Both the position numbers and the translations under genes were made by a program. 64,000 bases of DNA from Tachypleus tridentatus (Eukaryota; Arthropoda; Merostomata; Xiphosura; Limulidae). The stretch spans positions 22,708,034 through 22,772,033 of the forward strand of contig NC_134829.1 in assembly GCF_004210375.1 (NCBI RefSeq). The letters are read 5' to 3'. Under the pieces are notes generated by a model. It ran no database searches. It was not told where the DNA came from and saw nothing but the letters and a program-made list of their open reading frames with translations. Of the stretch, positions 5,976-53,577 are shown in pieces (the stretch's first letter is position 1; the number at the start of each line of letters is the position of its first letter).

Positions 5976-6806
5976 CCACATTTGGAAGAAGGAAACCTCT
6001 CTCATTTTCAGTGTTTCCATGAGTTTCATACTAGAACCACAGAAGGTGTCAACCTGGAGTTTCAGAAAGAAATATTGGTGATTTAAATAAGCATTTTTAG
6101 AGAGATTTTCAGATCTCGACAGAATCGAAAGTGACATTCTCCTTTTTCATAATCCTTTTGATTGTGTCATAGATGACGTGCCAGTGGAACTTCAGCTGGA
6201 GGTCATCGATTTGCAAGGAAATGACTTGTTGAAAGCAAAACACAGAGAGGGGCAACTTATTGAATTTTACAGCTGCATACTTGAAAATGATATTCCTAAG
6301 CTGAAGCAGTTTGCATCTAGTATGACATCAGTGTTCGGAACAACTTATGTCTGTGAACAAGCATTTTCAAAAATGAAGCATATGAAATCGGTACATCGAT
6401 CAAGGTTGACTGATGAACATTAGAAAGCAATTCTAATTATTGGATGCAGCAATTCAAAACCGAACATTGAAGATATTTTGAAAGCCAAACACCAATTTCA
6501 TAAATCTCACTAACTTTTTTGCGGCTTAGTGAAATTCAGATATGTACTCACTATGTGCGATGTGGCAATTGTTCTTGCTAACTTTTGATAACATTTTGGT
6601 AAATAAAAATGTTTGTTGTATTTTTCTTTGTTTTTTTATTATGTGTGTGTTGCATTCTACTCCCACATGGCTAATGTGGTAACCTAAACTTAGTGTTAAG
6701 TATTTTACAGAAAGCTTTCGTTCTAGCTTACGAGTATTGAACATAATGATCACGTGTCATTTTCCAAGTAATCTGGCCCCCTGTGAAAAAAGTTTAATGA
6801 TCCCTG
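5976..6806 (+). mobile_element. hAT transposon 3' remnant (GTF2IRD2-like), unit 1
   Basis: The frame at 6178-6500 reads QLEVIDLQGND, FGTTYVCEQAFSKMK and SRLTDEH, the C-terminal dimerisation region of hAT transposases. The 3' terminus (TTAATGATCCCTG, ending 6806) is the reverse of a CAGGGATCATTAA-type hAT end. The 5' side is replaced by a SINE at 5701-5975. Confidence 0.7.
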
Positions 6807-10819: not shown

Positions 10820-12243
10820 ATGAAGATTTGGGTGGTTCTAGCATTACTCGTAATAATCACCGTAATTCCACCGACTACAGGTAATAAATACACACGTCGT
10901 ATACTGTATTTATGAAATGAGAATGTTTAAGTCATTTATTTTTATTTTTTCCCAATATATACCATAAGTGAATCAAATATTTCTATATCGTCACTATGTG
11001 TTTATAGATATCCTTGATGGCTTGTTTGTTTATTTTAGAATTTTGTGCAAAGCTACATTAGGACCATCTGCTTTATCCTTACCTAATTTAGCAATGTACG
11101 GCGAGAGAGAAAAACAGTTGCTCATAACTGCCCACCACCTACTCTTGGACAATTCTTTTTTCAACGAATAGCGGAGTTGGCTGTCAGATTATAACGAATC
11201 CGTGTCTGAAAGCGACCATATTTGGTGTGACGGTTATTCCAAACCGTTACCTTCAGATAACAAGGAGAGCGCGTTAACCACTTGGCAATGCCGGGCCATA
11301 CACTCTTTAGAAAAGTTAATTTCGAAGTATAATACTAATGATGTATTATGAGTAGATGTTTATTTAATAAGTGACGTAACATTTTTAGAGTAAATAACCA
11401 GCAGAAGAAATCTGGTATTTGTCCAATTTTAACACTACATATATACACATACAGTTGAATACTGTAGTTCAGCTCAAACGTTCAATCACATCCTAAGCGG
11501 GAATGATAAATTTTGATATTTCTATTTAGGTAATTTCTTAAGAATTTTGCCCGAAGCTACTGCATACAGCCATACCTAACTTTCTACAGCAACCATTACC
11601 TTGTGTTACGCTATTTTTATTAGAGGGAGAAGGGGATATACAACCACTTACAGCACTCAAAGTGAAAAGTTCGATTATACAGAAAGTGTTGAACCAGAAA
11701 TCTTTGAATACACATTCTGGACACTAACCACTAGTTAACCACTAGATCTTGCGCTTTACTTTCGAGACAAAAATCGAAAGAAAAATGTAGTTAAACAGGA
11801 TTTGTTTGAAGGATACGATATCTTCAAGTTTTATTCTAAAGAATGATGAAGATATATGTTTCGTTTTCTTCAGACAATTGTATTAAGCTTTAAAATGGCA
11901 AAGGAATAGTATTCAAACTGTTAACTGGAAATCATTAACTCCAGCTTCTCCTGTATTATAAGGTTCATATTTTATAGCTAATATAGTTTATATGATGAAA
12001 TATTATTTTTAATGTTACCGTTTGGTGAGGTTAGACAGTATTTCTTTTGTTTTCTTTATCTAGAATCAGCGTTTCTCCATTTTCCCCAACAGAGAAAAAC
12101 GTTGGAAAAGAACCTATACCTTTCAGGCAACACCAAAGGAAGGTCTATCGCCAAATTTAACGTCATTTGAAGAAGAAAGGATAAATCCTAAACAGAAGCT
12201 GAGAGCAGCTGAAATTTCCGAAATCGACATCAGCAATAAATAA
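10820..12243 (+). pseudogene. Gene 1: two-exon secreted peptide copy, truncated in exon 2
   Basis: Exon 1 is 10820-10880 and reads MKIWVVLALLVIITVIPPTT plus the first base of a Glu codon. The intron is 10881-12063 (GT...AG). Exon 2 begins at 12064. The frame stops at TGA 12168-12170, giving about 55 aa, although DNA similarity to gene 3 continues to the homologous TAA at 12241-12243. A 4-base excess relative to gene 3 (around 12138-12142) causes the early stop. An AATAAA lies at 12516-12521. The TATA position is mutated to TGTAAAA (10745-10751). It is the tandem-duplicate counterpart of gene 3 (offset about 32.15 kb). It could still make a short secreted peptide, but truncation makes a pseudogene more likely. 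Confidence 0.5.
11022..11297 (-). mobile_element. SINE-1 in gene 1 intron
   Basis: Full-length reversed copy, ending GGCAATGCCGGGCC. It occupies the same intron place as 43158, 21083 and 53099. Confidence 0.85.
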
Positions 12244-12914: not shown

Positions 12915-13205
12915 AGAGTCCGATAGACTCAATTCTATAAACACTTTTATATCGTTACATTAGAATAAATCGTTTATACACTTCTACATCGGTACATAAG
13001 ACAAATGTCTTTGCGAACTTCTATATCGGTACATGGGACTAAATCGTTTAAACACTTTTATATCGGTACATTGCACAAAATCATTTAAACACTTATATGT
13101 CAGTATAACAGACTAAGTTGTTTAAACACTTCTATACCGGTACTGAGGACTAAATCGCTTACACACTTCTATATCGGAACATTGGACAAAATTGTTTACA
13201 CAAAG
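12915..13205 (-). repeat. Degenerate 37-bp minisatellite (unit 1, inverted)
   Basis: About eight diverged units with the motifs ACACTTCTATATCGGTACAT and GACTAAATCGTTTA, the reverse of the array at 19225. It lies about 0.7 kb beyond gene 1. Confidence 0.75.
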
Positions 13206-15307
13206 TTTTGAAATCAACTTCAACATCCATCTCTGTCTCTAACATACATTCCAGCAAATCCTAGATCCACTTCCTTTGGTTCCGGGAAAGGCATTTCCTC
13301 AAGTACATTGTCTTCTCCCCTCTCAAGATGCTAAACGATCATTCGTTAACGTTCTCAGTCGCTGTAATCCTCGTCCAATAGCAAAGAACTGTCCAATCGA
13401 CCCAGGGCAGGATCTATGGAGGTCGATAGTCCTGTTTCGAATAAAGACAGTAAAGAAAGAAGAGGTGATCGTAAAAGAAGGGTTCTCCACCCAATTCGCC
13501 TACACGTAAATAGAAATGGTTCTCTTGATCCAATAAAACTGTTGAGATTTACGTTCTAATCTGGATGACATCAAAACACTAATTCCTTCTTACCATCCTG
13601 TATGTCTTTCCTTACAGGATACTTGTCTGAAACCTCCCAACACAGTCACTTTTCGTCTGTTTTCTTTGTACAGAAATGACAGACATGAAGGGGTGTCACT
13701 GTTGGTTGATCAGCATGTGCCCTCCTTGTCTTTGCCAAACAAAACACCCTTGGAGGCCGTAGCCATCTGTGTTTCCTTGGGTAATACCATAACTGTTTGT
13801 TTTCTCTACATGTCACCTGAAGAGACATATGATCAATCAGGCCTTGATATTGTCATTGAACAGTTGCTGTCTCTCTTTTTAATTTTAATCCTATGGGACT
13901 TTAACGAACATCATCACGCCTGGGGAAGTGCGGATATTGAAAGGAGGGTCGCTCCGTATTGCATATGCTATCTGATCACAATCTCTCTCTTTTCAGTACT
14001 GGTTCTTATACTTATTGTAACGCACCTAGTGTGTTCTTTTCTACAATTGATCTGTCAGTTTGCTCCCCTATTCTCCCATTTTTCTTCAAGGGTTGACAAT
14101 AATCAACGAGGCAGTGGTGATTTTCTTATAATTTTGAGAGAGACTGGCCGTGGTCGATACCACTTAACTCGCGGAAGCAGGATCAATTAATCTTGCCCTC
14201 TTTCACTACTCTCACAGAATTTGATCCTGTCATCGTAGGTAAACCATCAGCAGACGACAGTGTGGCAGCGGTAACTGACTCTATTATACAAGCAGCTCTT
14301 CAGTGTATTCCTAAAACCACGTTTTCCACAATATCCTCGTCTGTGATGGAATCCTGTCTGCCACATGGCATTGAAGGCTCTGGTACGATCCTGGTATACT
14401 TTTCGTTGATATTCCACACTCTCGCACTGCATCGCTTTCCAACAGGTCCGTGCACATCCTTGGTAGGAAAGACGTCGAAGCCAGAAGGAATCTTGGATTA
14501 ATTTCACAACCAGCATATCTTCTACCATCAGTTCCAAATTCACATGGGACAAGATTCAATAGGTCAGTGGACAATATAATTCTGTCCCCCTCTTGAACTT
14601 TCTCTCTGATTGCCATAAAGTAACTGATACTCGGAACATCGCCGAAAATCTAGGTGAAAGGTTTTGCTGGGTATCTAGCACTTCTGCTTGAAACTCAACC
14701 TATTTAGCTATCAATATTTGAGCAAAGCGATCACCGATTTCCTTTCGAGTTGACAGTCTCTACACTATGAAATGCTGCGCCATCTATCTTCTGCTTCTCT
14801 TTTTATTCTTCTGATTGTTTTTAACCGGATCTGGCAGGAAAATGTTTTCCTGATTCTTTGCACCAAACAATTCTCCTACCTTTCTCTAAGCCTGGGAAGG
14901 ATCCCAATATTCCTTCAAACTACCGTCCATTTGCTTTGACGAGCTGTCTCTGTAATACCTTGGAGAAAATGGTTAATGCTCGTCTTGTTTGGTTCCTCGA
15001 AAAGTCAATCAGAGAAGCCTATGTCAAACGACAACATCTTGTATCAATTTTATTTGACATTGAGAAATCGTATGATACAACATGGAGGTATGGCATATTG
15101 TGAGACCTCCATATATATGGGTTACGTGGCCATTTGCACATCTTTATTAAAAAGTTTTAATTGGCAGGAGATTTCAAGTTCATGTGGCTTCGACACTTCC
15201 CCGTTTTTTTCTTCAGGAATTTGAAGTACCGCAGGGCAGGAGTTTGAGTGTCACTCTCTTCTGTATAAAGATTAATGCCATCACTGAACAATCCCTTCTC
15301 ATTGTTG
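13205..15307 (+). mobile_element. LINE remnant, endonuclease plus RT half (unit 1)
   Basis: From about 13630 the frame shows an AP-endonuclease-like domain: TPLEAVAI, ITVCFLYMSP and WDFNEHHHAWGS (13666-14190), the LINE endonuclease D-F-N-x-H-H motif. Next come RT motifs: LLPFSKPGKDPNIPSNYRPF (about 14866), FDIEKSYDTTWRYGIL (about 15053) and VPQGRSLSVTLF (about 15230). The element is cut by a SINE at 15308, before the YxDD site. Stops and frameshifts between domains show it is dead. Confidence 0.7.
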
Positions 15308-19235: not shown

Positions 19236-19725
19236 GTAAATAGTTCAGTTTAATGTCCTAATATAGAAGTTTTTTTTACCCTTTAGACCGATGCACTGCT
19301 GCAAAAGTGCGAAAACATTTTGTCCAATGTACGGATATAGGAGTGTGTAAAGAACTTGGTCTAATCTAACGATATAAAAGATGTGTTAAGAATTTAGTTT
19401 AAAGCGATTTCTATATCCTTTACAGCGATATAGAAGTGTGTAAACAATTTCGTCCAATGCAAACACAGAAGTGTTTAAACAGTTTAGTTCAATGTACGAA
19501 AATAGAGGTGCGTAAACAATTTGTCCAATGTATTGAAAGATAATTTTTGCCTGATGCACTGATGTAGAAGTGTTTAAACAATTTAGTCAATATGGCGATA
19601 CAGAAGTGTGTAAAGAATTTAGTCTTATGTACTTATACAAATGTATGTAATGAATTTAGTCTAATATACCGGTATAAATGTGTGTATACAATTTACTCTA
19701 ATGTACCGATATAGATGTTTGTGAA
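19225..19725 (+). repeat. Degenerate 37-bp minisatellite (unit 1)
   Basis: About 13 diverged units such as GATATAGAAGTGTGTAAACA, ending about 0.3 kb before the 3' end of gene 2. Confidence 0.75.
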
Positions 19726-19930: not shown

Positions 19931-19943
19931 TTTATTATTTATT
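19931..19943 (-). terminator. Poly(A) signals of gene 2
   Basis: Two AATAAA hexamers on the minus strand (19938-19943 and 19931-19936), about 90 nt beyond the stop codon. Confidence 0.4.
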
Positions 19944-20029: not shown

Positions 20030-21545
20030 TTATGCGTTATCTGTTGCTGATGTCGATTCAGCTGCTCTAAGCTTCAGTTTAGCTTTTATTTTCTTCACTA
20101 AATGACGTGTGGTATAGCCAATGACGGTTGGTGGTGCCTGAAAAGGTACAGGTTCTCTGCCAACGTTATTTCTCAAACTGTAATGGGGAAACCTGAGTTC
20201 TAGATAAAGAAAACAATACAAACACGTATATAACTTCAGGAAACGAAAACATTGAAAATAACATTCAATTATATAAACTATATTAACTATAAAATATGAA
20301 CCTTTATTATAGATTTTAAATGAATTTTTGCAGGAGAAGCTGGTGTTAATTAATTCCACTTGTAAGTTTGAAGAAAACACATTATAAATTTCATCATTCT
20401 CTAGAATAAAACTTGAAGTTACTATCTCCCCGCTCAGGATGTGATTGAGCATGTGGGTTTGTTTGTTTTTTTTGAATTTCGCACAAAGCTACTCGAGGAC
20501 TATCTGTGCTAGTCGTCTCTAATTTAGTAGAGTAAGACTAGAAGGAAGGCTTCTTGTCATCACCACCCACCGCCAACTCTTGGACTACTCTTTTACCAAC
20601 GAATAGTGGGATTGACCGTCACATTATAACGCCCCCATGGCTGAAAGGGCGAAAATGTTTGGAGTGATCGCGATGCGAACCCGCGACCCTCAGATTACGA
20701 GTCGCACGCCTTAACACGCTTGGACATGCCGGGCCGAAAGTAAACGCCCCTAAGTGGGCTCAAACCACCTACCTTTCGATTAACAGCCAAACGCGCTCGG
20801 CGATTGCGCCACGAAGGCGACGAGCGTGTGGCACGAGCTACAGTTTGTTTGTTTGTTTGGCACAAAGCTACAGTATTCAACAGCAGTGTAAGACTATAGG
20901 GAAATGTCATCACCAATATAACTGGACAAATACCAGATTTCACATTATCACCCCACGGCTGTGGTTATTTGTTTAAAACGACCCTCGGATTTTAAGTCAG
21001 GTCACGTATAAAATATAAACATAACTGGACAGTTATAATACATAATTATTATTATACTAAGTAACTGTTCTAAAGAGTGTACGGCCCGGCAATGCCAAGT
21101 GATTGAGGCGCTCGCCTTGTAATCTAAAAGGTAACGGGTTGGAATACCCGTCACACAAAACATGCTTGCCCTTTCAGGCACGGGGACGTTATAAGTTAAC
21201 GGTGAATTCCACTATTCGTTGTAAAAAGAAGAGTCCAGTAGAAGGTGGTGGGCAGTAATGAGTAAGTGCCTTCCCTCTAGTCTTATACTGCTAAATTAGG
21301 AAAGACTCCGGCAGATGGCTCTCGTGTAGCTTGCACAAAATTCTAAAAGAAACAAACAAGTCATCAATGGATATGAACAAACAGACAGTGACGCAACAGA
21401 AATACTTCATTTGGGAAAAATAAAAATAAATGACTTAAACATTCTAATTTTATAAATGCAGTATACGACGTGTGCATTTATTACGTGAAGCCAGTATCAT
21501 TACGGAAATGATTACGAGTGAAGCTAGAACCACCCAAATCTTCAT
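20030..21545 (-). CDS. Gene 2: intact two-exon secreted basic peptide, 76 aa, family not recognised
   Basis: Exon 1 is 21545 down to 21485 (61 nt), exon 2 is 20199 down to 20030, and the intron (21484-20200, 1285 nt) has a GT donor and an AG acceptor after a pyrimidine-rich tract. The joined frame is open for 76 aa. Exon 1 encodes MKIWVVLASLVIISVMILAS, a signal peptide with a plausible cut after L-A-S. The split codon gives Gln, so the mature peptide would start Q-L-R-F and could form pyroglutamate. The 56-residue mature part has no cysteine, a Pro-rich middle (REPVPFQAPP) and a basic stretch (RHLVKKIKAKLKLRAAES), with about ten Lys/Arg against three acidic residues. AATAAA signals lie about 90 nt past the stop and a TATAAAA box lies 70 nt upstream of the ATG. 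This is the only copy intact in the frame shared with gene 4. A host-defence role is inferred from charge and secretion only. Confidence 0.6.
20459..20735 (-). mobile_element. SINE-1 in gene 2 intron
   Basis: Full-length reversed copy; the tRNA-Asn-like sequence begins just past it. Confidence 0.85.
20745..20818 (-). tRNA. tRNA-Asn(GTT)-like pseudogene
   Basis: A 74-nt cloverleaf-like sequence on the minus strand: GCCTTCG acceptor arm, TGGCGCAATCGCCGAGCGCG D arm, anticodon loop CTGTTAA (GTT), TTTGAGC T loop, and GGGGC plus G at the 3' end. The acceptor stem has one mismatch and several G-T pairs, the D loop lost its GG and the T loop has TTT for TTC, so it is probably a pseudogene. It sits inside the gene 2 intron beside a SINE and is missing from gene 4. 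Confidence 0.55.
20838..20915 (-). mobile_element. SINE-1 fragment in gene 2 intron
   Basis: GTTTGTTTGTTTGG tail, CACAAAGCTAC and a short piece of core. Confidence 0.55.
21083..21358 (+). mobile_element. SINE-1 in gene 2 intron, ancestral position
   Basis: Full copy starting GGCCCGGCAATGCCAAGTG; the inverted equivalent of the gene 1 intron SINE. Confidence 0.85.
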
Positions 21546-21614: not shown

Positions 21615-21701
21615 TTTTATAGGTTAAACTCGTTTCTTTATGGACAATAATTACTTCTGGGAATAACGTACGCAGATGTTTATGCCACGCGTCATAATGA
21701 C
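21615..21701 (-). promoter_or_regulatory. Gene 2 promoter: palindrome plus TATA box
   Basis: TATAAAA (reverse strand, 21615-21621) lies about 70 nt before the ATG. The perfect inverted repeat GTCATAATGAC lies at 21691-21701. The pair spans 87 bp, exactly as in the other three copies. The palindrome holds TGAC half-sites; no binding factor can be named from this alone. Confidence 0.45.
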
Positions 21702-22768: not shown

Positions 22769-24362
22769 CAGTCATGTGTAAAAGTTAGGACACGCGACGA
22801 AATTCTGTGTATTTGTGTAACATTCTTGGAAATATAGATATTTAATCTCAATTTCAACAATACTGAGAGATTATAGGAATATAAGTAAACAATTAAAATG
22901 AAGAAAAGACTTTTTCAAGATCTTCTATTAATGTAATTCTAGAAAAATGGATATTCTAACAGGAAAAAGTTTGGACACCCAGCCTCTAATAGCTAGTGTT
23001 ACCCCTTTGGCTGAAATAACTGCAGTGTGACGCTTCTTCTAGCCGTCTACAAGTCTCTGAGATCGGACTGAAGAAAGTTTACCCCACTCCTCAATGCTGA
23101 ATTATTTCAGCTGTGAAATGTTTGAGAGGTTTCTTGCACGTACAGCCCGTTTTAAGTCACCCCACAGCATCTCAGTGGGATTAAGCTCTGGGCTTTGACT
23201 CGACCATTCCAGGACTCTCTATTTGTTAGTTTTCAGCCAGTCCTTGGTGGATTTACTGGTATGTTTTTGGGTCATTGTCGTGTTCCAGGGTCCAGTTCTG
23301 CTTCAGCTTTAATTTTCGTACAGATGATCTCACATGATCCCCAAGCACCCTCTGATGCACAGATGAATTCATGGTGGATTCTATGATTGTGAGCTGTCCA
23401 GGTCCTGCTCCAGCAAAGCAGCCCCAAACCACAACACTTTCACTTATGTTCTTTTCCTAAAATGCTCTATTTGGTTTACGCCAAACATGTCCTCTGTTCT
23501 GGTGTCCAAATAATTCAATTTTGGACTCATCTATCCAAAGAACGTTACTTCAGAAGTCTTGGTCTTTGTCTGCATTATCTCTGGCAAACTTCAGTCTGGC
23601 CTTGATCTTTCTCTTAGAGAGCAAAGAATTCCTCCTTGCACACCTCCCATGCAAGTTAAACTTGTGCAGTCTCTTTCTTATTATAGAGGCATGTACTTTC
23701 ACATCAACATTAGATAGAGCCTGCTGTAGGTCCCGTGATGACATGTTAGGGTGTTTGGAGACCTCTTTTAGCATCTTGCGGTCTGCTATCGGGGTGAACT
23801 TGCTTTTTCGACCAGACGTGGGCATGTTGGCAATTGTTTTGAAAGCCCTCCACTTGTTGATTATTTTACGGACAGTGGAATGGCTGATTTCAAAGTTTTC
23901 TGGATCTTTTTAAATCCCTTAACAGACTCATAAGCAGCTACGGTTTTCTTTCTGAAGGCCTCAGACAGCTCTTTTGCTCTAACCATGATGCTCACTCTCA
24001 CTTCAACAGTCAGGAGCAAAACTGAATGTCCGATGTTCAAATTGGGCAATCCTCATTCAAAATGTCGTGTAACTATCTTCTAAACATGTGCACCTGGTGT
24101 GATACACCTGTATGTGAGTTGAGCCATTTTAAGTAGGAATAAATGTGGGGCTGTCTTAACTTTTTCCTCAGTTATAACATGCATTTTTTCTAGAATTACA
24201 TTTATAGAATATCTTGAATAGTCTTTTCTTCAGTTTTAATTGTTTAGCTATATTCCTATAATCTCTCAGTATTGTTAAAATTGAGATTAAATATCTTTAT
24301 ATTAAAAAATGTTACAAAAATACACAGGCTTTCATAGAATGTCCTAAATTTTCACGTGACTA
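22769..24362 (-). mobile_element. Tc1-like DNA transposon with long terminal inverted repeats, inactive
   Basis: The 1594-bp element is flanked by TA (22767-22768 and 24363-24364) and has inverted repeats of about 210 bp (22769 to about 22985, and about 24150 to 24362). The transposase reads on the minus strand from an ATG at 23986: V-R-A-K-E-L-S-E-A-F helix-turn-helix start, SSRDLQQALSNVDVKVHAS second helix region (23825-23550), then WIDESKIELFGH, LEHDNDPKT and LNPTEMLWGDLK, which carry the D, D and E expected of a Tc1 catalytic triad. Several frameshifts break it. There is no copy at the matching spot in unit 2 (54360), so it arrived after the duplication or was lost there. Confidence 0.85.
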
Positions 24363-32534: not shown

Positions 32535-33705
32535 TGCTGCTCAGAATGTGCAAACAATTTTATCTTATGTACCAATATAGAAGAGTGTAAAGAAATTAAT
32601 ATACCGGTATAGAAGTATATAAACATTTTAGTCCAATGTATCAATATAGAAGTTTGTAGACAATTTACTCCAATGTATCAATATAGAAGTATGTAAACAA
32701 TTTAGTCCAATGTATCAATATAGAAGTATGTAAACAATTTAGTCCAATGTATCAATATAGAAGTATATAAACAATTTAGTCCAATGTATCAATATAGAAG
32801 TTTGTAGACAATTTAGTCTAATGTATCAATATAGAAGTATGTAAACAATTTAGTCCAATGTATCAATATAGAAGTATGTAAACAATTTAGTCCAATGTAT
32901 CAATATAGAAGTATGTAAACATTTTAGTCCAATGTATCAATATAGAAGTATGTAAACAATTTAGTCCAATGTATCAATATAGAAGTATGTAAACATTTTA
33001 GTCCAATGTATCAATATAGAAGTATGTAAACATTTTAGTCCAATGTATCAATATAGAAGTTTGTAGACAATTTACTCCAATGTATCAATATAGAAGTATG
33101 TAAACAATTTAGTCCAATGTATCAGTATAGAAGTATGTAAACAATTTAGTCCAATGTATCAATATAGAAGTATATAAACAATTTAGTCCAATGTATCAAT
33201 ATAGAAGTTTGTAGACAATTTAGTCTAATGTATCAATATAGAAGTATGTAAACAATTTAGTCCAATGTATCAATATAGAAGTATGTAAACAATTTAGTCC
33301 AATGTATCAATATAGAAGTATGTAAACATTTTAGTCCAATGTATCAATATAGAAGTATGTAAACAATTTAGTCCAATGTATCAATATAGAAGTATGTAAA
33401 CATTTTAGTCCAATGTATCAATATAGAAGTATGTAAACAATTTAGTCCAATGTATCAATATAGAAGTATATAAACAATTTACTCCAATGTATCAATATAG
33501 AAGTTTGTAAACAATTTAGTCCAATGTATCAATATAGAAGTTTGTAAACAATTTAGTCCAATGTATCAATATAGAAGTTTGTAAACAATTTAGTCAAATG
33601 TATCAATATAGAAGTTTGTAAACAATTTAGTCAAATGTATCAATATAGAAGTATATAAACAATTTAGTCCAATGTATCAATATTGAAGTTTGTAGACCAT
33701 TTTGC
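32535..33705 (+). repeat. 37-bp minisatellite, ~31 homogeneous units
   Basis: Unit of 37 bp containing ATATAGAAGTATGTAAACAA and TTTAGTCCAATGTATCA. Variants (TTTGTAGAC, TATATAAAC, ACATTTTAG, TTACTCC) recur in order every 11 units, giving a 407-bp higher-order repeat (32640-33050 repeated at 33050-33460). Confidence 0.9.
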
Positions 33706-42964: not shown

Positions 42965-44402
42965 ATGAAGATTTGGGTGGTTCTAGCATTACTCATAATA
43001 ATCACCGTAATTCCACCAACTACAGGTAACAAATACACATGTCGTATACTGTATTTATGAAATTAGAATGTTTAAGTCTTTTTTTTTTCATATATATACC
43101 ATAAGCGAATCAAATATTTCTATATCGTCACTATGGGTTCATAGATATCCTTGATGGCTTGTTTGTTTATTTTAGAATTTTGTGCAAAGCTACATTAGGA
43201 CCATCTCCTTTATCCTTACCTAATTTAGCAATGTACGGCGAGAGGGAAGACAGCTGCTCATAACTGCTCACCACCTACTCTTGGTCAATTCTTTTTTCAA
43301 CGAATAACGGAGTTGGCTGTCAGATTATAACGAATCCGTGTCTGAAAGCGAGCATGTTTGGTGTGACGGTTATTTCAAACCGTTACCTTCAGATAACAAG
43401 GAGAGCGTGTTAACCGTTTGGCAATGCCGGGCCATACACTCTTTAGAAAAGTTAATTTCGAAGTATAATACTAATGATGTATTATGAGTGGATGTTTATT
43501 TAATAAGTGACGTAACATTTTTAGAGTAAATAACCAGCAGAAGAAATCTGGTATTTGTCCAGTTTTAACGCTACATATATACACATACAGTTGAATACTG
43601 TAGTTCAGCTCAAACGTTCAATCACATCCTAAGCGGGAAAAGATAAATTTTGATATTTCTATTTAGGTAATTTCTTAAGAATTTTGCGCGAAGCTACTGC
43701 ATACAGCCATACATAACTTTCTACAGCAACCATCATCTTGTGTTACGCTATTTTTATTTGAGGAAGAATCGGATATACAACCACTTATAGCACTCAAAGT
43801 GAAAAGTGCGATTATACAGAAAGTGTTGAACCAGAAATCTTTGAATACACATTCTGGACACTAACCACTAGTTAACCACTATATCTTGCGCTTTACTTTC
43901 GAGACAAAAATCGAAATAAAAATGTAGTTAAACAGGATTTGTTTGAAGGATACGATATCTTCAAGTTTTATTCTAAAGAATGATGAAGATATATGTTTCG
44001 TTTTCTTCAGACAATTGTACTAAGCTTTAGAATGTCAGAAAGAATAGTCTTCAAACTGTTAAGTGGAAATCATTAACTTCAGCTTCTCCTGCACAAGTAA
44101 AGATTCATTTAAAATGCATAATAAGGTTCATATTTTATAGTTAATACAGTTTATATGATGGAATATTATTTTCAATGTTACCGTTTGGTGAGGTTAGATA
44201 GTATTTCTTTTGTTTTCTTTATCTAGAATCAGCGTTTCTCCATTTTCTCCAACAGAGAAAAACGTTGGCAAAGAACCTATACCTTTCAGGCAACACCAAA
44301 GGTCTATCGTCATACCAAACGTCATTTAGAGGAGAAAGGATAAATTCTAAACAGAAGCTGAGAGCAGCTGAAATTTCCGAAATCGACATCAGCAATAAAT
44401 AA
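42965..44402 (+). CDS. Gene 3: two-exon secreted basic peptide, 78 aa, open but with a shifted internal frame
   Basis: Exon 1 is 42965-43025, the intron 43026-44226 (GT...AG), and exon 2 is 44227-44402. The joined frame runs 78 aa to TAA. Exon 1 gives MKIWVVLALLIIITVIPPTT and the split codon gives Glu. The tail begins ESAFLHFLQQ and ends KLRAAEISEIDISNK. Aligned by DNA to gene 2, exon 2 carries indels of +2, -1 and +2, so the middle is read in other frames and the original frame returns before KLRAAE. The result is still basic and cysteine-free. The intron holds a minus-strand SINE at the place equivalent to the SINE of genes 1, 2 and 4. The TATA position reads TGTAAAA. Either this is a functional divergent member or a pseudogene that happens to stay open. 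Confidence 0.45.
43158..43434 (-). mobile_element. SINE-1 in gene 3 intron
   Basis: Duplicate of 11022-11297. Confidence 0.85.
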
Positions 44403-45074: not shown

Positions 45075-45365
45075 TAGAGTCCGATAGACTCAATTCTATA
45101 AACACTTCTATATCGTTACATGAGAATCAATCGTTTATACACTTCTACATCGGTACATAAGACAAATGTCTTTGCGAACTTCAGTATCGGTACATGGGAC
45201 TAAATCGTTTATACTTTAATATCGGTACATTGCACAAAATCATTTAAACATTTATGTGTCAGTATAATAGACTAAATTGTTTAAACACTTCTATACCGGT
45301 ACTGAGGACTAAATCGCTTACACACTTCTATATCAGAACATTGGACAAAATTGTTTACACAAAGT
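45075..45365 (-). repeat. Degenerate 37-bp minisatellite (unit 2, inverted)
   Basis: Tandem-duplicate copy of 12915-13205, about 0.7 kb beyond gene 3. Confidence 0.75.
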
Positions 45366-51012: not shown

Positions 51013-51235
51013 GACAGTATTGTAGTTTTTTATCTGCAATTTATACAATTTCACCTGACGCTTATAAAAGAAAACTAATGAAAGTCTCGAAAAAAAGTAT
51101 ATATTACTAATGTCCTACGATTGTTATACTATAAACCTCTGAAGTTATAATTGTCATTGATGCTAAGTAAACAGGAACTTCAGATATCTGACCAAAAACC
51201 TATAAGATTTCGAATATAGTATTGTGTAAATAATT
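51013..51235 (+). repeat. ~210-bp direct repeat, second copy (unit 2)
   Basis: Duplicate of 19020-19235. Confidence 0.6.
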
Positions 51236-52180
51236 CAGTTTAATGTCCTAATATAGAAGTTTTTTTAACACTTTAGACCAATGCACCGATGCAGAAGTGA
51301 GAAAACATTTTGTCCAATGTACGGATACAGGAGTGTGTAAATAACTTAGTCTAATCTACCGATATAAAAGATGTGTTAAGAATTTAGTTTAAAGCACCTA
51401 TATTGAAGTGTGTAAAAATTTGTCTTATGCAACGATATAAAAGTGTTTAAACAATTTAGTTCAATATACCGATATATAGGTGTTAAAACAATTCAGTATA
51501 TTTTCCCTGTATAGTAGTGTTTAAATAATCTATCCTATACAACGATAAAAAGAGTTGAAATAATTTAATACAATGTACATACATAGATGTGTTTAAACAG
51601 TTTAGTTGATTTCACCGATACAGAAGGGTATACATTTTTTTTTAAAGTAGCGATGTAAAAGTCTGTAACAATTTAATCTAAAGTACCAATGTATAAGTCT
51701 TCAATGAATTTGTGGAATGCACCGATTTAGAAATGTTTAAACAATTTAATTCAATGTACCGATGTGAAAGTGTGTAAAGAACCTATCCTTTACAGCGATA
51801 TAGAAGTGTGTAAACAATTGAGTCTATTGCAACGATATAGAAGTGTGTAAAGAATTTGTTCTATGCTGCGATATAGACATGTTGCAACAAGTTAGTCCAA
51901 GGCACTGATATACACGTGTGTGAATGATTTGTTTAATGCACAAATATAGAAGTGTTTAAACAATTTAGACCAATGTACCAAAATAGAGGTGCGTAAACAA
52001 TTTGTCCAATGTATTGAAAGAAAGGTTTTGCCTGATGTACCGATACAGAAGTGTGTAAAGCATTTCGTCTTACGTACTTATATAAATGTATGTAATGAAT
52101 TTAGTCTAATATACCGGTATAAATGTGTGTATACAAGTTACTCTAATGTACTGATATAGAACTTTGTAAACAGATTTGGT
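51225..52180 (+). repeat. Degenerate 37-bp minisatellite (unit 2), expanded
   Basis: Counterpart of 19225-19725 but almost twice as long, about 25 diverged units, adjoining the 3' flank of gene 4. Confidence 0.75.
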
Positions 52181-52440: not shown

Positions 52441-53577
52441 TTATACGTTATCTGTAGCTGATGTCGATTCAGCTGCTCTGAGCTTCAGTTTAGCTTTTCT
52501 ATTTATTTTCTTCACTAAATGACGTGTGGTATAGCCAAAGACGATTGGTGGTGCCTGAAAAGGTACAGGTTCTCTGCTAACGTTATTTCTCCAACGTTGA
52601 TGGCGAAACCTGAGTTCTAGATAAAGAAAACAATACAAACACATATATAACTTCAGAAAACAAAAACTTTGAAAATAACATTCAATCATATAAACTATAT
52701 TAACTATAAAATATGAACCTTTATTATAGATTTTAAATTAATCTTTTCTTGTGCAGGAGAAGCTGTAGCTAATTAATTTCACTTGTAAGTTTGAAGGCTA
52801 TTCCTTCTGCCATTCTGAAATTTAATGCAATTTTCTGATGAAAAAACATATATCTTCATCATTCTCCAGAATAAAACTTAAAGTTACTGTCTCCCCGCTT
52901 TGGATGTGATTGAGCGTGTGGGACTAGCTACAGTATTCAACTGTATGTATATAAATGTAGCATTATAACTGGACAAATACTAGATTTCTTCATGTGGTTA
53001 TTTGTTCTAAAAACAATTTTAAGTCAAGTCACTTATAAAATAAACACCCACACATAATACATAATTAGTATTATACTAAGTAACTGTTTTAAAGCGTGTA
53101 CGGCCGGCATTGTCAAGTGATTAAGGCGATCGCCAAGTAATCTAAAAGGTAACGGGTTGGAATACCTGTCACACTAAACATGCTCGCCCTTTCAGGCACG
53201 GGGACGTTATAATTTAACGGTGAATTCCGCTATTCGTTGGTATATAAGAGATAAATAGAAGGTGGTGGGCAGTGATGAGTAAGTGCCTTCCCTCTAGTCT
53301 TACACTGGTAAATTAGGAAAGGCTAAGTCAGGTGGCCCGCGTGTAGTTTTGCAAAAATTCTAAAAGAAACAAACAAGCCGTCAAGGATATGAATAAACAA
53401 ACAGTGGCGCTACAGAAATATTTGATTTGCATACTGTATATATTTGGAAAAAATGAAAAGAAATGACTTAAACATTCTAATTTCAAAAATTCAGTATACG
53501 ACGTGTGTATTTATTACCTGTAGTCGGTGGAATTACGGTGATTATTAGAGTAATGCTAGAACCACCCAAATCTTCAT
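52441..53577 (-). pseudogene. Gene 4: two-exon secreted peptide copy with a 1-bp deletion in exon 1
   Basis: Exon 1 is 53577 down to 53518, only 60 nt against 61 in the other copies. The missing base turns CTC-GTA into CTC-TAA, a stop after ten codons. Exon 2 (52616 down to 52441) is fully open in the gene 2 frame, with 57 codons plus stop, and carries an in-frame 6-nt insertion that adds two residues within the basic stretch. It contains REPVPFQAPP and KLRAAESTSATDNV. The intron is 53517-52617, about 0.9 kb, and lacks the nested minus-strand SINE seen in gene 2. TATAAAA is intact 70 nt upstream. The coding tail looks well kept, so the exon 1 lesion is probably recent, or could be an assembly error. 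Confidence 0.55.
53099..53378 (+). mobile_element. SINE-1 in gene 4 intron
   Basis: Duplicate of 21083-21358. Confidence 0.85.

Follow-up and report, generated by a model that had tools for sequence, protein, structure and literature searches.

The window analysed here, a 64,000-nucleotide stretch of the Tachypleus tridentatus genome (contig C5:22708034-22772033), carries on its minus strand two short exons that together read as the precursor of a small basic peptide. An initial annotation proposed a member of an undescribed family of secreted peptides, and the question raised by the locus is whether it represents a gene that can still make such a peptide or the remains of one. The family is real, local and unreported within the literature and databases searched. 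Slightly better than even, in our judgement, is the reading of a lineage-restricted birth-and-death family of once-coding genes for secreted cationic peptides, in which one copy, termed B, may still be active.

Anatomy of copy B

At base level, copy B possesses the gene parts that had been reported, in the following arrangement (window positions):

21615..21621, minus strand: TATA box TATAAAA, 70-76 nt 5' of the ATG; TATAAAA is present in 10 of the 15 exon-1 copies
21485..21545, minus strand: exon 1, the signal exon, 61 nt, with the ATG at 21545; it encodes MKIWVVLASLVIISVMILAS plus the first base of the next codon and ends in the donor CAC/GTAATA
20200..21484, minus strand: phase-1 intron, GT-AG, 1285 nt, with SINE-like repeats
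20030..20199, minus strand: exon 2, the cationic Cys-free mature region and stop; the TAA ends at 20030
19931..19943, minus strand: two AATAAA poly(A) signals, at 19943-19938 and 19936-19931, the second assigned by eye

The claimed 61-nt signal exon, phase-1 intron and second exon are confirmed on the minus strand, as are the TATA box, which starts at 21621, and the poly(A) signals, the first of which starts at 19943. On the acceptor side of the intron, TTTTCTTTATCTAG directly precedes the start of exon 2 at 20199. Of the consensus splice sites that had been claimed, the GT-AG borders stand but the full donor consensus does not: CAC/GTAATA lacks G at -1 and has T/A at +5/+6, and such a donor is weak by splice consensus. 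The spliced open reading frame (ORF) is 76 aa long (MKIWVVLASLVIISVMILAS-QLRFPHYSLRNNVGREPVPFQAPPTVIGYTTRHLVKKIKAKLKLRAAESTSATDNA), and its 56-aa mature part has a net charge of +7, a pI of 10.7 and zero cysteines, all in agreement with the product initially described (76 aa, no cysteine, charge about +7). Upstream into the intron, the exon 2 frame stays open to 20488.

We infer splicing, secretion, present-day expression and a defence role for copy B in the following form. The TATA promoter would drive transcription and the phase-1 intron would be spliced out; the product would then be secreted and its signal cleaved near Ser20/Gln21, and the freed lysine/arginine-rich, cysteine-free peptide could act on microbes or as a signal.

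A family found in one cluster

The whole assembly (2.17 Gb, 205 contigs) was searched with the repeat-free parts of the copies, the SINE-bearing part being excluded, and the counts are lower bounds. Homologs of exon 1 occupy at least 16 places genome-wide (15 copies and one 43-nt fragment), and exon 2 gave at least 20 matches, which amount to 18 copies, G and P each being split in two; three of the copies (T, O and U) are partial. Both exons are present in 13 copies, exon 1 only in N and E, and exon 2 only in R, S, T, U and V. All matches to either exon fall between C5 22664671 and 22947460, a single stretch of ~283 kb, and a protein search of the genome with exon 2 returned seven matches at E up to 10, all inside this cluster. 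The clustered, multicopy family of the initial annotation is thus borne out, with at least 15 exon-1 and at least 18 exon-2 copies, every one on contig C5.

Five copies lie in the window: A and C on the plus strand, B and D on the minus strand, and a lone signal exon, E, on the plus strand. Those other than B are arranged as follows:

10820..10880, plus strand: copy A exon 1, an open signal exon with TGTAAAA at the TATA position
12064..12170, plus strand: copy A exon 2 with stop, in a frame that differs from that of B and stops early; spliced ORF of 55 aa
38455..38515, plus strand: copy E, a signal exon alone, exon 2 not found
42965..43025, plus strand: copy C exon 1, an open signal exon, with TGTAAAA
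44227..44402, plus strand: copy C exon 2 with stop, open, spliced ORF of 78 aa, its centre in another frame than B
52441..52616, minus strand: copy D exon 2 with stop, open in the frame of B and two codons longer
53518..53577, minus strand: copy D exon 1, broken by a 1-nt deletion

The window consists of two related halves ~32 kb apart, with an inverted copy pair in each. Farther along the contig, exon-2 copies H, R, J and G (C5:22785-22819 kb) recur 95-104 kb away as S, V, Q and P (22882-22923 kb), a pattern suggestive of a large recent duplication; S adjoins a run of N. The family would have grown by local tandem and inverted duplication within the one ~283-kb cluster and lost members through stops, frameshifts and lost splice sites, in a process of birth and death.

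The position of all relatives found, in one ~283-kb stretch, fits a local multigene family and not a transposon. A transposable element with an ORF-like stretch might be suspected from the SINE-like sequence of the intron, which matches many contigs, and from transposon relics within the window; once the SINE part is excluded, however, a single contig accounts for every match in the 2.17-Gb genome, all of them inside 283 kb. Transposons would be dispersed and these matches are not, so this reading, by far the most improbable that we considered, is rejected. The initial annotation would have yielded to a match with a known transposon; what was found is that every match to the non-SINE parts lies at a single locus.

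Decay and constraint

The copies are decaying. A codon-4 stop (TGG to TGA) is common to J, Q, I, G and P, five of the 15 exon-1 copies; the acceptor AG is missing in G and P, and O has none either. The spliced ORFs measure 78 aa in C, 76 in B, 68 in M, 64 in H, 55 in A and 41 in K. Because of indels, exon 2 of A and C is read in another frame than that of B, and exon 2 of M partly so. The frame of B over the exon-2 core is common to D, J, Q, H, S and I (from translations), to K and, read by hand, to R and V; its wide sharing makes it the probable ancestral frame. At the DNA level, R and C finish in an EISGIDISNK-like tail, from which the tail of B and D differs through a 10-nt gap. The best reading of copy B is that of the best preserved member of the family. 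That the locus is a working gene, as first proposed, is not supported: a spliced ORF of 55 aa or more persists in five of the 13 two-exon copies, the other eight being broken or cut short, and exon 2 is without purifying selection.

The two exons behave differently in tests of selection. In exon 1, pN/pS was 0.65 across 14 copies and 0.47 across 11 (B, E and O omitted by choice), and the deficit of change at codon positions 1+2 reached p=0.092 and p=0.042, respectively; judged from these sequence comparisons, exon 1 appears mildly constrained. In the five copies with the codon-4 stop, the rest of exon 1 is conserved nonetheless, and its conservation is thus no proof of coding. For exon 2, no purifying selection was detected in the frame of B among seven copies (pN/pS 1.63; the two shifted frames give 0.68 and 0.49), and positions 1+2 showed a non-significant excess of change (p=0.07 with seven copies, 0.11 with nine and 0.19 with 12). 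From the pN/pS and codon-position tests, the mature exon is either unconstrained or diversifying, and the data fit both. Between A/C and B/D, exon 2 differs by 24-28% and the flanks by 15-19% (p 0.003-0.19 in eight comparisons), an excess that is absent between B and D and between A and C. The second half of exon 1 is unusually diverged in copy B (p 0.002-0.011 against A, C and D, for a block picked after inspection); nine changes in exon 1 are unique to B, of which eight alter an amino acid, a hint only, with positions read by hand. Bursts of change at positions 1+2 in exon 2 of H (p=0.013) and in exon 1 of B (p=0.010) are likewise hints only, being uncorrected among 21 tests. Diversification could be taken further, to cysteine-free defence peptides restricted to horseshoe crabs and under diversifying selection, in which the shifted exon-2 frames of A, C and M relative to B would make new peptides behind a fixed signal exon; we hold this version to be improbable.

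How much of the surviving coding capacity could be due to chance depends on the depth of decay. Shuffling alone leaves a fixed 57-codon frame free of stops in 1-3% of cases. Neutral-decay simulations were started from B's own ORF, with divergence and indels varied. With indels, an ORF of at least 55 aa survived per copy in 23-28% of runs at 8% divergence, 9-17% at 12-16% and 6-7% at 20%; without indels, the figure was 17-48%. Against the 12-16% settings, the five surviving ORFs among 13 copies have P=0.004-0.055, or P=0.018-0.13 when A and C are counted once (4/12). The excess favours a degree of retained coding without proving it, varies with the depth of decay assumed, and is gone at shallower decay (8% divergence) or without indels. 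The openness of copy C was set aside as proof of coding: when B's core was subjected in simulation to three random indels and 15-25% substitution, it stayed open in 16-21% of runs.

The chief alternative is a relict cluster, in which the gene is dead, the copies are pseudogenes carried by segmental duplication and B is open by luck. The large share of broken or short two-exon copies, the stop codon common to five of them, the unconstrained exon 2 and the missing -1 G of B's donor all agree with it, as do the simulations of neutral decay with indels, where 2-16% of runs per copy still end with an ORF of 70 aa or more; at that rate, B and C among 13 copies are unsurprising. Weighing against it, B combines a full ORF in the common frame with a retained TATA box, acceptor and AATAAA, exon 1 is mildly constrained, and ORF survival is somewhat above neutral at the deeper settings. 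We regard a wholly dead cluster as unlikely, though the most serious competitor of a once-coding family with B possibly active.

Constraint might also reside in the nucleic acid, as a non-coding transcript or a function in the conserved block around exon 1 and the opening 70 nt of the intron. The intron start diverges least between A-D and E (0.04-0.12 per 30-nt window, against 0.20-0.25 in exon 1), and a 9-bp hairpin is possible there. Of the three sequences folded, however, two give this hairpin an ordinary energy (z -0.36 and -0.41) and B gives z -1.85, the covariation amounts to one compensated pair in one copy (B), and Rfam had no match in the block at gathering thresholds. The hairpin is a weak candidate, and a non-coding function seems to us quite improbable.

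Peptide character and nearest analogues

All eight mature or exon-2 peptides scored were net positive and free of Cys. AlphaFold2, applied to the 55-aa exon-2 peptide (two sequences), predicted a helix at residues 30-54 and an N-terminal half without regular structure, with a mean pLDDT of 70 and a pTM of 0.32. The amphipathic alpha-helix first proposed for copy B did not hold, though AlphaFold2 draws a helix: the moment at 100 degrees of a hand-picked segment, chosen post hoc, was equalled by 74% of shuffles, and the maximum helical moment found with sliding windows over this region of B was matched by 23-35% (3-8% for D, 17-50% for J). At the strand angle of 160 degrees, the same hand-picked lysine segment has a high moment, reached by 2.7% of shuffles. 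By eye, two adjacent lysines (KK) sit inside the helix of copy B, whose short tail, AAESTSATDNA, includes a single E and a single D; a clear propeptide is not seen.

The same product could be parsed as a neuropeptide or hormone precursor, with the N-terminal Gln converted to pyroglutamate and VGR/VGK in exon 2 serving as amidation and cleavage site, the usual meanings of such motifs. Copy B reads QLRFPHYSLRNNVGRE, and copy J reads NKVGKE and TKR; the glycine-basic site is absent, however, in D, H and I. Genes for neuropeptides tend to be conserved, not amplified into decaying clusters, which counts further against a precursor of this type, and we consider it very unlikely.

Database searches supported the view that no known family is represented, in that Pfam, the PDB and the literature gave no meaningful match. 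Pfam at E up to 10 had no match for copies B, C, A, H or J; hits of exon 2 of D to an alpha-mannosidase domain (E 0.0069; 16.9 bits, where the cut-off is 31.1) and of copy M to SdpI (E 2.9) were taken as chance, as were the sequence matches in the PDB, where E went no lower than 0.18 for B and 0.13 for the family profile. A PDB sequence search with copy C returned no match. Viral contigs contained 77 stretches with the peptide pattern, of which zero encode an exon-2 relative, and the SINE pattern was not found in viral and prokaryote contigs. The literature covered, which takes in few of the subscription papers, contained no match to the peptide or SINE strings and nothing relevant on a secreted-peptide cluster in horseshoe crabs.

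Membership of the established peptide families was rejected on cysteine content. Copy B has neither a Cys nor the six-cysteine, beta-defensin-like C-terminal domain of big defensins, and no Pfam match; the six conserved cysteines of CS-alpha-beta defensins are absent; and the cysteine-stabilised mature peptide of tachyplesin, tachystatin and tatritin is missing. Mature tachyplesin is a disulfide-bonded peptide. A genome-wide search for Defensin_big had no match, and none was obtained in 14 control genomes either, hence the search is uninformative on the genome.

By analogy only, the family is most like host-defence peptides in habit, and host defence is the role that we favour. Nearest in habit are the myticalins, linear cationic antimicrobial peptides of mussels (PMC5577615), which were set beside the family by description. 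As in myticalins, the family is multigenic, linear, cationic and lineage-restricted, includes pseudogenes and has a phase-1 intron, with a conserved signal peptide and a hypervariable mature part (PMC5577615); in copy B, too, a Cys-free cationic mature peptide follows a signal peptide, the signal being judged by eye. In contrast, myticalins encode signal and mature peptide in one exon, with the phase-1 intron after a dibasic site, and have an acidic C-terminal propeptide (PMC5577615), of which there is no clear counterpart here. The gene layout resembles that of scorpion CS-alpha-beta defensins (PMC6435467), with two exons, one phase-I intron and the whole mature peptide in the second, although their intron splits the signal peptide and they carry a six-Cys pattern, whereas here the intron follows the signal and there is no Cys.

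Horseshoe crab big defensin (PMC7203481, PMC7011531) comes from the same animal group and is likewise secreted, with a cationic part and a phase-1 intron, but has a six-cysteine domain that is missing here. In big defensins a phase-1 intron precedes the Cys domain; here one follows the signal exon, and introns of this kind are also seen in other secreted-peptide genes (PMC6435467, PMC5577615). Tatritin, a horseshoe crab antimicrobial peptide (PMC8984021), is also short, secreted and cationic (signal of 21 aa, pI 9.99), but has a cysteine-rich mature peptide and three exons. The tachyplesin precursor (PMC7011531), at 77 aa, is similar in size to the product of copy B; in it, a mature peptide of 17-18 aa precedes a Gly-Lys-Arg amidation signal and a further 22 aa at the C-terminus, unlike the long, cysteine-free mature region found here. 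The horseshoe crab antimicrobial peptides covered by PMC8984021, PMC7011531 and PMC7203481 are cysteine-bearing, and a Cys-free clustered family would widen this repertoire. It would also be a clear example of birth-and-death evolution in a lineage that changes slowly; should its copies be dead, the cluster would still record how a secreted-peptide family decays.

Repeats and neighbours of the cluster

A tRNA-Asn-like SINE head lies in the intron of copy B (window 20744-20819), with related sequence on many contigs; at the start of the same intron, window 21450-21484 has diverged less from copy E than exon 1 has. Minisatellites with a period of ~37 nt form a largest array at 32608-33702 (~30 units) and smaller ones at 12924-13202, 19430-19722, 45102-45361 and 51214-52172; four of the smaller arrays are downstream of gene copies. 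Transposon relics occur at window 23550-23909, 6091-6423 and 13546-14190; they derive from transposases of the Tc and hAT types and from an endonuclease of retrotransposon type, the endonuclease falling below the Pfam cut-off. Inside the cluster, two adjoining ORFs on the minus strand (C5:22849172-22851190) encode leucine-rich repeats, then Ig and fibronectin III domains, and probably represent a host-like adhesion or receptor gene. To our knowledge, the Coagulin family is restricted to horseshoe crabs; it has 19 matching places in the 2.17-Gb assembly, against 0 of 14 control genomes.
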